64,000 nt of DNA from Candidatus Poribacteria bacterium (GTDB lineage: Bacteria; Poribacteria; WGA-4E; WGA-3G). Of the stretch, positions 17,428 to 23,571 are shown piece after piece. The stretch spans positions 1,694,856 through 1,758,855 of the forward strand of contig OY282374.1 of assembly GCA_958295815.1 (NCBI GenBank), read 5' to 3'. A model generated the notes under the pieces. The model saw only the letters and a program-made list of their open reading frames with translations, was not told where the DNA came from and made no database searches. Both the position numbers and the translations under genes were made by a program. Position 1 is the stretch's first letter, and the number at the start of each line of letters is the position of its first letter.

Positions 17428-18369
17428 ATGGCACAAGAGTGGCACTCTACACAATTAGAAATTGATGAAAACGAGGATCTCATTGAGGTCTGCTATGAAA
17501 ACGAATGGACGGATGGGCTGCCTGTGGTTCCGCCAACGCCTGAACGTGTTGAACGCATGCTTGCGGGTACAGACCGAGGCCCGGACGAACTCATCGCCGC
17601 TGTTCCGCCAAAATGGGGCAGAGCCACCGTTGAAAAGGTCGCTATTAACGCAGTTATGGCGGGATGCAAACCGGCATATCTACCGCTTATCCTCACCGCA
17701 GTCGAAGCGTTAACATCCGAACAGTTCAACCTCCACGGGATTCAAGTCACAACCTCTCATGTCTCCCCGGTGCTCATTATCAACGGACCCGTCCGAAAGC
17801 AGTTAGAAATTAACGACGGATTTAACCTTTTTGGACAAGGATGGCGAGCGAACGCCACTATCGGACGCGCTCTACGCCTCATCTGTACGAATATCGGTGG
17901 TGGCTTACCCGGTGAACTTGATCGTGCTGCATTCGGGCACGCCGGGAAGTATACCTGCTGCATCGCTGAAAAAGAAGAGGGAAGCCCTTGGGAAGCACTG
18001 CATGTCGAACGCGGATTTCAAGCCGATGATAGCACGGTTACCATTTTCGCAGGTGCCGCACCACAAGCCGTAAACGACCACGGCAACAACACCGCAGAAG
18101 GCATCCTTGATACAATTGCCCACAACATCGCTGCCCCCGGTAACAGCATCGGTGAAACCGTCCTCGTCATAGGCGTTGAACATGCAAAGACGATTGCTGA
18201 TGACGGCTTCAGCAAAGCCGACATCCGGCGATACATCGCTGACACCACAGGGAGCTACTCGGCGGATGATCTCTTGCTCATGGTTGCAGGTGGACCCGCA
18301 GGCAGATGGACAATCGCTGTTCCCGGATGGGGAGGACGATCCTCTCTTGCTATAACAATAGCGATGTAG
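17428..18369 (+). CDS. conserved protein of unknown function (WTDGLPVVPPT family)
   Basis: A 313-residue soluble protein. The N-terminal motif WTDGLPVVPPTPERVERML is one I associate with a widely spread uncharacterised family seen in actinobacterial and environmental genomes. The middle has NLFGQGWRANATIGRALRL and GGGLPGELDRAAFGHAGKY, and a CC pair follows in YTCCIAEKEEG. No signal peptide or membrane segment. A strong ribosome binding site (AGGAAGGA) and its own promoter suggest a single-gene unit. Function unknown. Confidence 0.75.
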   Translation: MAQEWHSTQLEIDENEDLIEVCYENEWTDGLPVVPPTPERVERMLAGTDRGPDELIAAVPPKWGRATVEKVAINAVMAGCKPAYLPLILTAVEALTSEQFNLHGIQVTTSHVSPVLIINGPVRKQLEINDGFNLFGQGWRANATIGRALRLICTNIGGGLPGELDRAAFGHAGKYTCCIAEKEEGSPWEALHVERGFQADDSTVTIFAGAAPQAVNDHGNNTAEGILDTIAHNIAAPGNSIGETVLVIGVEHAKTIADDGFSKADIRRYIADTTGSYSADDLLLMVAGGPAGRWTIAVPGWGGRSSLAITIAM

Positions 18370-18585: not shown

Positions 18586-18614
18586 TTGCCAAAATATGTG
18601 GTATCCTTTAATAC
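18586..18614 (+). promoter_or_regulatory. putative promoter of the CBS-KorAB operon
   Basis: TTGCCA and TAATAC with a 17-base spacer, 57 bases upstream of the first CBS gene. It is the only convincing promoter seen before the four-gene run. Confidence 0.45.
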
Positions 18615-18670
18615 GAAAGAATAAGAAACTAAAATCGGTTTTCTGACGTTAAATTAAAGGAATATGTACG

Positions 18671-19099
18671 ATGGACGCAAGAACGTTATCTTTACCAATT
18701 AGCACACTCGATTATAAGCAACCTGCCACCGTGCCACTTGGCTCTCCTGTCTCTATTGCCATTGACATGATGCAAGAGGAAGGACGAGGGTGTGTTCTCG
18801 TTGTTGATGACGATGAACAATTGGTGGGGATCATTACTGAACGCGACCTGATCCGACACGTCAGTGGACAGCGCGCTGCACCCGCAGAATTCAAGGTTGA
18901 ACAGGTAATGACAGCGGATCCAGAAACGCTTCGCGCCAGTGACCCGATTGCCTTCGCATTAAACTTGATGCACCTCGGGCATTTCCGGCACTTACCTCTC
19001 TGTGTTTGGGACGACCAAGGCGAGGCATACCCCATCGGAATAATTTCGACCCGCGATATCCTTGACCATATCGCTATATTCATAGAAAATCAGGATTAG
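18671..19099 (+). CDS. CBS domain pair protein
   Basis: A 142-residue protein made of one Bateman module: two CBS repeats, roughly residues 14-72 and 78-138, each with the usual ending (VGIITERDLIRHV; IGIISTRDILDHI). Such modules bind AMP, ATP, S-adenosylmethionine or NAD and act as energy sensors. It is followed after 11 bases by a second CBS gene and then by 2-oxoacid oxidoreductase subunits. A role in sensing adenylate charge for that enzyme is an inference from position. Confidence 0.88.
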   Translation: MDARTLSLPISTLDYKQPATVPLGSPVSIAIDMMQEEGRGCVLVVDDDEQLVGIITERDLIRHVSGQRAAPAEFKVEQVMTADPETLRASDPIAFALNLMHLGHFRHLPLCVWDDQGEAYPIGIISTRDILDHIAIFIENQD

Positions 19100-19110
19100 G
19101 AGACACAACC

Positions 19111-19644
19111 ATGCTTTACGACTTAGCAATTGACGAAGAATTAGAACAAATGGACGAAGACGCTGCGTTAAAGGCATGGAGCGCACAAGAAATTCAGGTT
19201 TCCCTAAAAGACTTGATGCGGCCTATTGTCACAATTGACATCGACTGTAGCATAAACGAGGCGATTGACCTGCTTTTGGCAAACAACATCGGTGCAGTAC
19301 CTGTCGTCGAAGACGGGTATCTCCGCGGGATTTTTAGTGAAAGAGATGTCCTCAACGAAATTCTCAACAAACAGATAGGAGACCTTGACCGCGTCGGGGT
19401 CAAACAATTCATGATAGCTGACCCGCAGACGGCGAGTCCAGAAGATTCCCTGAACGCCGCTATTCTCTATATGGCGCACGGCAATTATCGACATGTACCT
19501 ATTGTTGATACACAGAACCGACCGATCGGTATGGTTTCGATTCGTGATGTAATCTCTTATCTTGTCGGAGAATTTTCACAAGAAGTTTTAGCACTACCTC
19601 CGAGGCCCGTTCGAGATGCCATGAAAGCCCGAGAGGGTGCCTAA
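19111..19644 (+). CDS. CBS domain pair protein
   Basis: A 177-residue protein with a 30-residue acidic N-terminal extension and two CBS repeats (about 34-92 and 100-160; endings LRGIFSERDVLNEIL and IGMVSIRDVISYLV). It resembles the preceding protein, so the pair probably arose by duplication and may form a heteromeric sensor. It is co-directional with korA, whose ATG is 69 bases downstream. Confidence 0.88.
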   Translation: MLYDLAIDEELEQMDEDAALKAWSAQEIQVSLKDLMRPIVTIDIDCSINEAIDLLLANNIGAVPVVEDGYLRGIFSERDVLNEILNKQIGDLDRVGVKQFMIADPQTASPEDSLNAAILYMAHGNYRHVPIVDTQNRPIGMVSIRDVISYLVGEFSQEVLALPPRPVRDAMKAREGA

Positions 19645-19713
19645 TGCTTTTCAATCATATTGTGTAGGTGTGCTTTTCAGGTGTACATCTATCAGAAAAA
19701 GGAAGCGATTGTA

Positions 19714-21570
19714 ATGCGCAAGCCAGTAGAGCAAATTGAGGAGGCGACTATTCTGTTTGCTGGCGACTCCGGTGATGGGTCGCAGACCATTGGCACACAA
19801 ATGACTGAGACCTCTGCCCTCATTGGGAATGATGTCGCTACGCTACCCGATTATCCTGCTGAGATTCGCGCACCCGCAGGGTCATTAGCAGGTGTCTCCG
19901 GGTTCCAACTCCACTTCTCAAGCGAACAAATTCATACACCAGGCGACCTTTGCGATGTTCTCGTAGCAATGAATCCCGCCGCTCTTAAAGTTCACCTCCA
20001 TAAACTCAAACCCAACGGCATTCTTATTGTTAATGTTGACAATTTCGCGCGACGCTCGCTGCGCCTCGCAGGATATGAGGACAATCCACTTGAGGATGGC
20101 ACCGTTGCAAAATACCAGGTCTTCTCAGTCGAATTAACACGACTCACCCGAAAAGCTCTCGAAAATACAGACCTAACGACACGCGAAATTGATCGGTGTA
20201 AAAATTTCTTCGCACTCGGTATGATCTTGTGGCTCTACAACCGATCCATGGAATATACAATGAAATGGGTGAAGACCAAGTTCGCCACAAAGCCGCAGTA
20301 TATTGAAGCAAACATTCTCGCGCTCCGTGCTGGCAATATTTATTGCGAAGCCACCGAACAGTTCGCTGTCTCTTACGATGTGAAACCTGCAGCCTTTGAA
20401 CCGGGAACCTACCGCAATATTGAAGGCAATATGGCGACTGTGCTTGGACTCATTGCCGCTTCGCATCAGTCCGGTCTCCCGCTCGTTTACGGCAGCTATC
20501 CGATAACACCCGCAAGCGACATCCTCCACGGACTCGCACAATACCGAAATTTCGGGGTTATCACGATGCAGATGGAAGATGAAATCGCAGCCGTTGGTGT
20601 CGCAATCGGTGCCGCGTTTAGCGGCTCACTCGGTGTTACCGGGAGTAGTGGACCCGGACTCGCACTTAAGTCGGAAGCCATTAATCTCGCTATGATTGCC
20701 GAACTTCCGCTCGTCGTTTGCAATATCCAACGCGCTGGTCCTTCAACCGGGATGCCCACAAAGACGGAACAGTCGGATCTCTTGCAAATGTTTTACGGTA
20801 GGAACGGCGAATCTCCTATTCCTATTGTCGCTCCCTCACGTCCGTTTGACTGTTTTGAGACGGTTTATGAAGCCTGCCGCATCGCCGTAAAGTATAGAAC
20901 CCCCGTGATATTCCTATCTGATCTCTATATCGGTATGGGTGCTGAACCTTGGCGGATTCCCAAACTCTCTGAATTGCCAGAGATTAAAGCGGATTTTGCT
21001 GGACGTGAATATGCACATGGAAACGGTTTTGAACCCTATCAACGCGACCCAGAGACCTTGGCGCGCCCTTGGGCAAAACCCGGGACGCCCGAATTAGAAC
21101 ACCGCATCGGGGGATTAGAAAAATCTGATATAACTGGACATGTCAGTTATGATGCCGAGAATCACGAGAAGATGGTGGAAATCCGGGCAGAAAAAGTCGC
21201 ACGCATCGCTAATGAAATACCTCCAACGGAAGTATTTGGCGCGCAGGAGGGCGACGTCCTCCTCCTCGGATGGGGTGGCACTTACGGTGCTGTCCGAACC
21301 GCAGTGGAGCACTGTGTTGAAGACGGACTCTCAATCGCACACGTGCATCTCCGACACCTTAATCCTTTCCCCAACGACTTAGCCGACATTCTAAACAGAT
21401 TTAAAAAAGTTTTAATCCCTGAACTAAACAGGGGACAGCTCCTTAAACTCGTCCGCAGCACCTATCTTATCGATGCAATTGGGTTTAACAAGGTACAGGG
21501 ACAACCCTTCCACGTTTATGAGTTGGAATCTAAAATTGACGAAATACTAAAAGAGTTAGGGCATTTTTAG
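19714..21570 (+). CDS. korA: 2-oxoacid:acceptor oxidoreductase, fused gamma-alpha subunit
   Basis: A 618-residue subunit of a ferredoxin-dependent 2-oxoacid oxidoreductase (2-oxoglutarate or pyruvate type). The gamma domain comes first (residues 8-200, FAGDSGDGSQTIG), followed by the alpha ThDP-binding part beginning GNMATVLGLIAA, with the YPITPASDILHGLA motif typical of KorA. The gamma-alpha order is that of KorA-type enzymes in bacteria and haloarchaea. The ATG at 19714 is preferred over a longer frame because GGAAG lies before it and the homologous region begins just after. With KorB it would decarboxylate 2-oxoacids to acyl-CoA and reduce ferredoxin. Confidence 0.93.
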   Translation: MRKPVEQIEEATILFAGDSGDGSQTIGTQMTETSALIGNDVATLPDYPAEIRAPAGSLAGVSGFQLHFSSEQIHTPGDLCDVLVAMNPAALKVHLHKLKPNGILIVNVDNFARRSLRLAGYEDNPLEDGTVAKYQVFSVELTRLTRKALENTDLTTREIDRCKNFFALGMILWLYNRSMEYTMKWVKTKFATKPQYIEANILALRAGNIYCEATEQFAVSYDVKPAAFEPGTYRNIEGNMATVLGLIAASHQSGLPLVYGSYPITPASDILHGLAQYRNFGVITMQMEDEIAAVGVAIGAAFSGSLGVTGSSGPGLALKSEAINLAMIAELPLVVCNIQRAGPSTGMPTKTEQSDLLQMFYGRNGESPIPIVAPSRPFDCFETVYEACRIAVKYRTPVIFLSDLYIGMGAEPWRIPKLSELPEIKADFAGREYAHGNGFEPYQRDPETLARPWAKPGTPELEHRIGGLEKSDITGHVSYDAENHEKMVEIRAEKVARIANEIPPTEVFGAQEGDVLLLGWGGTYGAVRTAVEHCVEDGLSIAHVHLRHLNPFPNDLADILNRFKKVLIPELNRGQLLKLVRSTYLIDAIGFNKVQGQPFHVYELESKIDEILKELGHF

Positions 21571-21696
21571 CCTTACATATCTAAAACGCCCTTTGCTGGC
21601 GAAGAGGAGTGCGTTTGGCATTCCAGAGAATTCCCAGTTCTGTCAGCAACAATACATCCTTAATTATCGGCTTTACTGTAGAAGGCGGTAAACATT

Positions 21697-22767
21697 ATGA
21701 AAAGAGAAAGAACTTCACGCACGAAAAGGAGTAGAACTTCACGCATTCCCGCTGGCGTACCCACCCTCTCAAAAAAGGATTTTGAATCCGACCAAGACAC
21801 ACGCTGGTGCCCGGGTTGCGGTGACTATTCTATTCTTGCCCAGACACAACGCATTATGCCTGAACTCGGCATCCCTCGCGAAAACATCGTCTTTATCTCC
21901 GGCATCGGGTGTTCAAGTCGATTCCCGTACTACATGAACACCTATGGTTTCCATACCATCCACGGTAGGGCACCGACGATCGCCTCCGGCGTAAAGATGG
22001 CGAACCCGAACCTCTCTGTCTGGGTTATTACAGGGGATGGTGATGCCCTCTCAATTGGCGGTAACCATTTTATCCACATGATGCGCCGCAACTTCGACCT
22101 CAACGTTTTGCTCTTCAACAACCGCATCTACGGACTCACCAAAGGTCAATACTCGCCCACTTCCGAGCAAGGTAAACAAACCTATTCGACCCCGCTCGGT
22201 TCTCTGGAGACTCCCTTTAACCCGATTAGCCTCGCCTTGGCTTCGGGGGCTACCTTTGTCGCACGATCACTTGATCGGGACCCTGATCATCTGCGGACGG
22301 TTATCAAGTCAGCGTTTGAACACAAAGGCACCTCCTTCATCGAAATTTATCAGAACTGCAACATCTATAACGATGGCACCTTCTTCCAATACACGGAGAA
22401 GGAAACGAAGGCTGACAATACGGTGTTTTTGGAGCATAGTGAGCCTCTCGTTTTCGGTGCAGAGCGGAACAAAGGTATCCGATTGAACGGGTTCCAACCC
22501 GAAGTCGTTGAAACCACAAACGGGGACTATACCACCGACGATCTCATCGTCCACGATCAGTATACTGAGGACACCACTTTAGCGAACTTCCTCGCGGGCA
22601 TGAGTGACACACCTGACATGCCGCATCCCATCGGTATTTTCCGCAGTGTCCGGCATCCCTGTTACGAAGACGCTATGACCAACCAAATCCACGGCGCAAA
22701 AGAGCGGGTCGGCGATGGCGACCTCGAAGCATTACTCAACGCTGGCGAGACGTGGACTGTGTCATAG
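21697..22767 (+). CDS. korB: 2-oxoacid:ferredoxin oxidoreductase beta subunit
   Basis: A 356-residue beta subunit holding ThDP and an Fe-S cluster. The cluster motif WCPGCGDYSIL is near residue 45, and ThDP binding is GDGDALSIGGNH with the closing asparagine in LFNNRIYGLTKGQ. The N-terminal 27 residues are very basic (KRERTSRTKRSRTSR) and are encoded by a short direct duplication (AGAACTTCACGC twice, 24 bases apart); most family members lack this. It is separated from korA by 126 bases. Substrate preference cannot be read from sequence with confidence. Confidence 0.93.
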   Translation: MKRERTSRTKRSRTSRIPAGVPTLSKKDFESDQDTRWCPGCGDYSILAQTQRIMPELGIPRENIVFISGIGCSSRFPYYMNTYGFHTIHGRAPTIASGVKMANPNLSVWVITGDGDALSIGGNHFIHMMRRNFDLNVLLFNNRIYGLTKGQYSPTSEQGKQTYSTPLGSLETPFNPISLALASGATFVARSLDRDPDHLRTVIKSAFEHKGTSFIEIYQNCNIYNDGTFFQYTEKETKADNTVFLEHSEPLVFGAERNKGIRLNGFQPEVVETTNGDYTTDDLIVHDQYTEDTTLANFLAGMSDTPDMPHPIGIFRSVRHPCYEDAMTNQIHGAKERVGDGDLEALLNAGETWTVS

Positions 22768-22797: not shown

Positions 22798-23571
22798 ATG
22801 AAAATTTACATTTTGACCGACTTAGAAGGCGTTGCGATGGTATCCCGCTTCAGCCAAACCCGTGAAGAAGGTCCCCAGAAACAGACAGCCATGAGATTAT
22901 TGACGCAGGAAGTGAACGCTGCTGTTGACGGCATTCTTGATGTGGATCCGGACGCAGAAATTATCGTCTGGGATGGACACGGGACGGGTGGGATTGACGT
23001 GCTCGAATTTCATCCAAAGGCGAAACTAATTGCGCGGGGTCCTATTCGTCCGCCCTACTATCTTGACAAGACCTATGATGCCCTCTTTTTCTTAGGGCAA
23101 CACGCCATGGCAGGCACACCAAACGCGCCGTTGAGTCATACCTACTCTTCTTTGTCGATTGAATACTATAAACTCAACGGAAACATGATCGGAGAATTCG
23201 GATGCCGTGCAGCACTCGCAGGCACTTTCAATGTCCCAACCGTGTTCATCTCTGGCGACGATAAAGCCGTTATAGAAGCGAAGCAGCTTATACCCAGTAT
23301 TTATGGTGTTGAAACCAAGCAGGGACTCGGACAGGAACTCGCGTTGCATCTATCGCCCCAACGGTCGCGAGAACTGATTCGAGAGACCGCTGCGACTGCC
23401 TGCCAAAATATCGCTAATATCCCCCCATTGAAAATCCATCCACCTTATGCGTTTGAAGTCCGGGTCCTTGAAGGCAAATCAATTGACGGCTACCTGAAAC
23501 GCGGCGCGACCAAGGTTGACGACCGCACCGTTAGCTGGCACAGTGATGACCTCTGCGCTTTGTCTATTTAA
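22798..23571 (+). CDS. M55 family D-aminopeptidase (DppA-like)
   Basis: A 257-residue zinc peptidase of the DppA/M55 family. All the residues known from Bacillus DppA can be matched: D8 and E10 (LTDLEGV), H61 (DGHGTG), H102 (LGQHAMAG), E133 (GEFGCRA), and H114 (LSHTYS), which corresponds to the nucleophilic histidine. It would cleave D-amino-acid peptides such as D-Ala-D-Ala from peptidoglycan turnover. It begins 30 bases after korB and could be in the same transcript. Confidence 0.9.
   Translation: MKIYILTDLEGVAMVSRFSQTREEGPQKQTAMRLLTQEVNAAVDGILDVDPDAEIIVWDGHGTGGIDVLEFHPKAKLIARGPIRPPYYLDKTYDALFFLGQHAMAGTPNAPLSHTYSSLSIEYYKLNGNMIGEFGCRAALAGTFNVPTVFISGDDKAVIEAKQLIPSIYGVETKQGLGQELALHLSPQRSRELIRETAATACQNIANIPPLKIHPPYAFEVRVLEGKSIDGYLKRGATKVDDRTVSWHSDDLCALSI

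Follow-up and report, generated by a model that had tools for sequence, protein, structure and literature searches.

Two CBS proteins encoded beside a KorAB-type 2-oxoacid oxidoreductase are part of a partner set recurring across several phyla and are candidate regulatory subunits

Do the two small CBS proteins encoded just upstream of a 2-oxoacid:ferredoxin oxidoreductase in a Candidatus Poribacteria genome belong to that enzyme, and might they regulate it? Enzymes of this kind carry a large share of the carbon and electron flow in anaerobes and in many uncultured phyla. The locus lies in a 64,000-nucleotide stretch of DNA (assembly GCA_958295815.1, contig OY282374.1, positions 1,694,856 to 1,758,855 of the forward strand), here called the window. 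We found that CBS genes recur next to korA and korB in several phyla. We consider it fairly probable (about 0.6) that the two proteins of the window, CBS1 and CBS2, are dedicated regulatory subunits that bind KorAB, that enzyme activity is set by an adenine nucleotide, and that a C-terminal tail of CBS2 is involved.

The genes are arranged head to tail, all on the + strand of the window:

18671..19099, + strand: CBS1, stand-alone CBS pair of 142 amino acids (aa); PF00571 twice; motifs GIITERD and GIISTRD; lacks the tail motif
19111..19644, + strand: CBS2, stand-alone CBS pair with a conserved C-terminal tail, 177 aa; PF00571 twice; motifs GIFSERD and GMVSIRD; cross-phylum alignment (A4) and AlphaFold2 model
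19573..19641, + strand: codons for the CBS2 tail, FSQEVLALPPRPVRDAMKAREGA, stop codon excluded; defined by cross-phylum conservation and a drop in model confidence
19714..21570, + strand: korA, 2-oxoacid:acceptor oxidoreductase alpha subunit, 618 aa from the ATG at 19714; TIGR03710; nearest solved relative 6n2n
21697..22767, + strand: korB, 2-oxoacid:acceptor oxidoreductase beta subunit, 356 aa; TIGR02177 and PF02775

A first-pass annotation, made from the letters of the DNA, had linked the CBS proteins by position to a KorAB-type enzyme. We confirmed the four genes at these coordinates, in agreement with Pfam and NCBIfam. PF00571 matched two stretches in each CBS protein (CBS1, 90.1 bits, E 1.2e-25; CBS2, 103.1 bits, E 1e-29; gathering cut-off 24), and the two proteins are 31% identical over 127 columns. 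KorA scored 643 bits on TIGR03710 (OAFO_sf; cut-off 482.75) and KorB 268.7 bits on TIGR02177 (cut-off 261.9). With both subunits above curated cut-offs, the family models identify korA and korB as encoding a two-subunit 2-oxoacid:acceptor oxidoreductase. The mechanical start of the korA open reading frame is a TTG at 19660. The ATG at 19714 is the likelier start because the open frame of a relative (locus L039; our loci are labelled L and our genomes G) stops short of anything upstream of the matching methionine. From the coordinates, the intergenic gaps are 11 bases (CBS1-CBS2), 69 bases (CBS2-korA) and 126 bases (korA-korB).

Linkage of CBS genes to korAB

We found that the gene order is conserved within the class. 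CBS1-CBS2-korA was present in 37 of 40 class genomes, including that of the window (judged by eye from listed coordinates), and CBS1 was upstream of CBS2 in all 37 genomes with CBS2. In one of the 37 (G026), approximately 1.1 kb separates CBS2 from korA. Because 37 genomes keep the order and the remaining three (G013, G020 and G039) have neither the CBS pair nor this korA, linkage in the class exceeds chance. The order is not unique to this contig, a concern of the first-pass annotation, and a quirk of one contig is ruled out by the 37 genomes. The same annotation had proposed a survey for the order elsewhere, and outside the class we recovered it, in varied form, in several phyla.

We scanned GTDB species genomes with a KorA alignment, analysed the best 80 of 580 loci, and used a CBS profile built from Poribacteria proteins to find CBS neighbors at those 80. 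A CBS gene adjoined korAB in 21 of the best 80 close KorA loci. Three were in Poribacteria and 18 were in Chloroflexota, Planctomycetota, Omnitrophota, Fidelibacterota (Marinimicrobia) and the acidobacterial Ca. Versatilivorator. At 14 of the 18 non-Poribacteria loci, a CBS gene upstream of korA was accompanied by a second CBS gene downstream of korB, whose product carries an N-terminal CxxC...CxxC (Zn-ribbon-like) module. The commonest arrangement across phyla was tail-CBS/korA/korB/Zn-ribbon-CBS, where tail-CBS denotes a protein with the C-terminal tail described below. Other arrangements were a single downstream tail-CBS gene (L070 and L076), an upstream CBS gene only (L108), and a KorB::CBS fusion (L118). 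The Poribacteria order, CBS-CBS-korA-korB, was also found in two Planctomycetota genomes (G291 and G354).

Matches to the tail-CBS profile were then counted in three phyla. Approximately 26 candidates were scored per genome, and the counts are lower bounds. At least 4 of 151 Chloroflexota genomes had a full-length match at E ≤1e-25, one of them already in the profile, and all three new matches adjoin korA. A close KorA was present in 9 of the 151, and the five without a tail-CBS have no CBS neighbor. The 149 Planctomycetota genomes gave at least 26 match loci outside the profile (E ≤1e-32, reaching profile position ≥138 of 149), and 22 of the 26 adjoin korA or korB. The other four lie beside a divergent KorAB paralogue (G291, C46), at a contig end (G288), or unlinked (G381 and G305); the CBS pair of G305 groups with an orphan tandem type. 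In 145 Omnitrophota genomes there were at least 22 new matches, all 22 directly upstream of korA and all 22 ending in EGG. A Zn-ribbon CBS gene followed downstream in 18 of these, and the remaining 4 loci are cut by a contig end.

The profile was also run on the 45 genomes behind the best 80 KorA loci. All 18 genomes with an adjacent tail-CBS gave a full-length match, and none of the other 27 matched to the profile end without a stop at E 1e-15; this test is partly circular, since 17 of the 18 positives are in the profile. Taken together, the gene neighborhoods indicate that KorAB has a recurrent set of CBS partners in several phyla, and we regard the partnership as well supported.

Some loci in these phyla carry further genes of the same kinds. 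At two Omnitrophota loci (L212 and L226), the tail-CBS/korA/korB/Zn-CBS cassette is preceded by another, divergent korAB pair. In G291, a second tail-CBS gene with the end REGA (L155:1548-5166) is divergent beside a different, more distant KorAB paralogue. Tandem CBS pairs were found in Planctomycetota (L126:6926-8351 and L127:2552-3609), and also at L128 and L189; the sequence retrieved around them has no KorA match. One protein from each of the L126 and L127 pairs ends in REGA. These pairs possibly form a related system that serves a different partner.

The linkage is unlikely to reflect simple inheritance of a single frozen operon. Gene order varies by lineage, and the presence of a CBS neighbor changed repeatedly on the trees. 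There were 19 changes on a FastTree tree of 146 KorA sequences (one outgroup), of which well-supported branches require at least 13, and 18 on a joined KorA+KorB tree (FastTree, 148 rows); these counts are rough, as the Planctomycetota sample was partly picked by CBS matches and FastTree trees cannot separate gain from loss. By this analysis the cassette has been repeatedly lost or gained, and is mostly linked when present.

Orthology of the window CBS1 to the Zn-ribbon or fused CBS proteins was set aside, as the CBS tree resolves too few branches (23 of 104 inner branches starred). The CBS proteins are too short and too diverged for a firm tree. On the tree obtained, fused pairs were scattered and several single downstream tail-CBS proteins fell on the CBS1/Zn side.

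The samples were defined as follows. L041, which shares a contig with L048, and L129, which shares one with L118, were left out of the KorA, CBS and KorA+KorB trees, the tail count and the motif counts. L130, L135, L155 and loci without a KorA match, such as L147 (korB and CBS only), were left out of the KorA tree, the tail count and the KorA+KorB tree, except that L130 was kept as the KorA-tree outgroup. The KorA+KorB tree also omits L220, L229 and rows with a short KorA or KorB. The motif counts omit L126-L128, L131, L136-L138, L153, L155, L189 and L190.

The CBS2 tail and KorB fusions

We found that the CBS protein encoded nearest to korAB ends in a conserved tail. The consensus is (F/Y)P.E(V/I)(L/Y)NLPP....(R)EG(A/G), with the stop codon immediately after. 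It is usually encoded by whichever upstream CBS gene is closest to korA, or by the sole downstream one. CBS2 of the window is such a protein: it is encoded beside korA and ends ...LALPPRPVRDAMKAREGA, with the Leu-Pro-Pro tail and the Gly-Ala/Gly end at the stop. A Gly-Ala or Gly-Gly end was present in 48 of 51 korAB-nearest CBS proteins (all but L134, L156 and L186), as opposed to 1 of 37 'second' CBS proteins (CBS1 of L047, ending EGGA), although 24 of the 51 had been found by means of a tail-containing profile. At loci found through KorA alone, 21 of 21 had this end. The count of 51 omits the Omnitrophota loci L212-L233.

The last 150 residues of the proteins from other phyla are 25-35% identical to those of the window CBS2, and Leu-Pro-Pro and Glu-Gly are among the best conserved columns. 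In the AlphaFold2 model of CBS2 the core is confident. Block means of the predicted local distance difference test (pLDDT) drop from 83 to 65 and 49 in the tail, and the first 30 residues are at 52-64. Low confidence in the tail is as would be expected of a flexible peptide. The tail pattern matched 73 of 12,139 open reading frames near korAB. CBS proteins account for 69 of these, and the other four look like chance matches, judged by eye. A Gly-Gly end is characteristic of ubiquitin-like and ThiS-like proteins; we set this explanation of the tail aside, as Gly-Ala ends are also common.

KorB is followed by a CBS pair in one open reading frame in five genomes: L118 and L135 (Chloroflexota) and L184, L185 and L187 (Planctomycetota). 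Pfam confirmation was run on three of the five. At L118, L184, L185 and L187, a CBS gene with a Gly-Gly or Gly-Ala end is also present upstream of korA; at L118 the product of this gene has no Leu-Pro-Pro. In the genome with fusion L135 (G225), a CBS gene with such an end adjoins korA on another contig (L134). Since a CBS pair can be fused to KorB, we argue that the separate CBS pair may sit on KorAB too. Apart from the fusions, KorB of CBS carriers was no longer than other KorB proteins. Several open frames of approximately 430-520 aa in GC-rich genomes (L146, L156, L158 and L111) were rejected as fusions; KorB sits on another open reading frame.

Ligand sites and possible roles

The sequence motifs for adenosine binding are partly conserved. 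All four are intact in the window (GIITERD and GIISTRD in CBS1, GIFSERD and GMVSIRD in CBS2). Across the loci, 63 of 74 tail-CBS proteins retain the first adenosine-site motif, G..[ST]..[DN], as do 57 of 58 second CBS proteins. The fold of CBS2 matches solved CBS proteins, several of them with adenosine mono-, di- or triphosphate (AMP, ADP or ATP). The first-pass annotation had suggested that the CBS proteins sense AMP/ATP and control the enzyme directly. The mostly conserved first site is consistent with nucleotide sensing, and the choice of AMP/ATP is weakened by two findings: the first-site Ser/Thr is replaced in 6 of 8 aligned Poribacteria CBS2 proteins (below), and the genome of the window encodes a cyclic di-AMP (c-di-AMP) synthase (DAC) domain (89.3 bits). 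With these two findings AMP/ATP is a candidate ligand, and c-di-AMP another. The suggestion of direct control fared better: the cross-phylum linkage, the differing gene orders and the five KorB::CBS fusions make it likely that the CBS proteins act directly on KorAB.

Based on these results we suggest the following mechanism. The CBS pairs would assemble on KorAB. Two CBS pairs commonly stack as a disc, and CBS1 and CBS2 could form a mixed disc on the enzyme. AMP, ADP or ATP would bind one CBS protein or both, at the conserved first site, and the ligand state would shift the flexible tail of CBS2. Leu-Pro-Pro and the free Glu-Gly-Ala end of the tail might dock on KorAB, as a docking or plug peptide, and enzyme activity would rise or fall with cellular energy state. 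Nucleotide regulation is the likeliest role of the CBS partners, though unproven; its ligand, its sign and the tail mechanism are inferred. A more specific version is tentative and, in our judgment, rather doubtful: that KorAB of several phyla is gated by the CBS-borne C-terminal peptide (Leu-Pro-Pro...Glu-Gly-Ala/Gly-COOH), which would enter or cap the active site or the ferredoxin/coenzyme A entrance on nucleotide binding or release.

Several observations weigh against regulation by CBS1 and CBS2. No CBS neighbor was found at 59 of the best 80 close KorA loci (some with short flanks), so KorAB can function without a CBS partner. Nor was there one at any of 29 further Planctomycetota and 5 Chloroflexota loci, fetched for the absence of a strong match. 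We tried 60 of 75 candidate column-residue states in KorA and KorB, and none convincingly tracks the CBS trait (the best in approximately 4-5 of 12 independent pairs). A minority of proteins retain the second adenosine-site motif, 13 of 74 among tail-CBS and 20 of 58 among second CBS proteins. Of the Poribacteria CBS2 sequences in alignment A2, 6 of 8 have Gly (GIFGERD) in place of the first-site Ser/Thr, so in some relatives only CBS1 may bind nucleotide, and CBS2 may not bind ligand everywhere. That 24 of the 51 proteins in the tail count were found with a profile containing the tail belongs here as well. Finally, we infer co-transcription of the four genes from gene spacing only. The first-pass annotation had predicted a single promoter, which our scan did not bear out: a 9-of-12 site at 18608-18635 is equalled by + strand sites at 19062 and 19226. 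With 16 promoter-type sites over 7 kb of both strands, as compared with 8.6 ± 3.4 in shuffled sequence, no site stands out.

Some of these points fit other explanations. The CBS proteins could be structural, assembly or stabilizing subunits of KorAB, or aids in loading iron-sulphur clusters, with no nucleotide regulation. Fusion and linkage indicate partnership rather than regulation, a Zn-ribbon-like module goes with the second CBS protein at many loci, and the second site is often degenerate, as is the first site of CBS2 in Poribacteria relatives. We consider a purely structural role unlikely, however; it does not account for the intact first site in 57 of 58 second CBS proteins. The CBS proteins could also share an operon for joint expression alone and act elsewhere, for example as general energy sensors. 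In favor of this, there is a tail-CBS away from korAB in G381, and there are orphan tandem CBS pairs in Planctomycetota, two with an EGA end; these too count against a dedicated role. However, linkage persists while gene order varies (upstream, downstream or both), and KorB fusions occur, making joint expression alone very improbable.

It might also be that the ligand is c-di-AMP and not AMP, ADP or ATP, so that the pair ties KorAB to the potassium or osmotic state of the cell. The model for this is DarB (CbpB) of Bacillus subtilis, a stand-alone CBS protein; its apo-form is reported to bind and activate pyruvate carboxylase, which c-di-AMP inhibits (PMC8822347). As a separate CBS pair that acts on a central carbon enzyme by direct, nucleotide-controlled binding, DarB is a precedent for the role proposed here, and the genome of the window, with its DAC domain, may make the ligand. 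In contrast, CBS1 and CBS2 scored 27 and 36.1 bits on the CbpB model (NF041630, cut-off 125) and are not CbpB by this measure. The target enzyme is also different, and here two CBS proteins, one with a conserved C-terminal tail, are linked or fused to it. We regard c-di-AMP as an improbable ligand, and adenine-nucleotide regulation by CBS1 and CBS2 remains our preferred explanation.

Other known proteins share features with this system. CBS pairs are the adenylate-responsive regulatory parts of AMPK gamma, but there they serve a kinase. Ta0289, which we take to have its Zn-ribbon at the C-terminus, represents a type (1pvm, 2qh1 and 3ghd) that combines a CBS pair with a Zn-ribbon-like module, as does the second CBS protein of other phyla. 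The module is N-terminal in the cross-phylum loci, and the window CBS1 lacks it. In CBS-pyrophosphatase (CBS-PPase), a CBS pair is likewise reported to be an adenylate-responsive regulatory part of an enzyme (PMC11172384), but it sits in the catalytic chain. Separately, the CBS part of a 392-aa chain in the PDB titled 'Dehydrogenase' (9sr9_H; 8 entries) matches the tail-CBS profile at E 6.7e-34.

The first-pass annotation knew of no established case of a CBS regulator for KorAB. Our search of the open literature (5.39 million papers, with subscription journals mostly uncovered) likewise found no description linking CBS proteins with a KorAB-type 2-oxoacid:ferredoxin oxidoreductase. The conserved tail, the Zn-ribbon form of the second CBS protein and the KorB fusions, as read from the sequences, go beyond that annotation. 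If the CBS proteins are sensors, then adenylate state would be coupled directly to ferredoxin reduction or CO2 fixation, which is testable with the four-gene cassette. The CBS2 tail would be a precise removable element, and the KorB::CBS fusions offer a ready one-chain construct. Gating by the tail, if true, would be a new kind of energy-state gating of low-potential carbon metabolism.

Substrate and neighboring genes

The window enzyme is of the KorAB type by sequence, and 2-oxoglutarate, as implied by that name, is only a candidate substrate. Among solved 2-oxoacid:ferredoxin oxidoreductases (6n2n, 6n2o and 5b46-5b48), KorA aligns with 6n2n chain A over residues 12-608 (E 3.7e-65, 224 bits). 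We take 6n2n to be the 2-oxoglutarate:ferredoxin oxidoreductase of Magnetococcus, and 5b46 presumably is the Sulfolobus enzyme. The window KorA is below every listed equivalog cut-off in NCBIfam. The same genome (5.13 Mb, one contig) encodes a second KorAB elsewhere (L130), without a CBS neighbor, whose KorA is 33% identical to that of the window. This second KorA scores higher on 6n2n (307 bits, above 224), so the window enzyme may use another 2-oxoacid. The E1 component of 2-oxoglutarate dehydrogenase (TIGR00239) was not found in this genome. There is an E1_dh-type gene in a 354-aa frame, perhaps a pyruvate dehydrogenase.

Upstream of CBS1 is a gene for a 313-aa predicted protein (17428-18369), which matched neither Pfam nor NCBIfam at E 0.001. 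Downstream, the gene for an M55 D-aminopeptidase (22798-23571) begins 30 bases past korB, so the operon may extend beyond korB, and the peptidase gene is possibly on the same transcript. The downstream frames of the two relatives inspected (L041 and L045) look unlike this peptidase gene.

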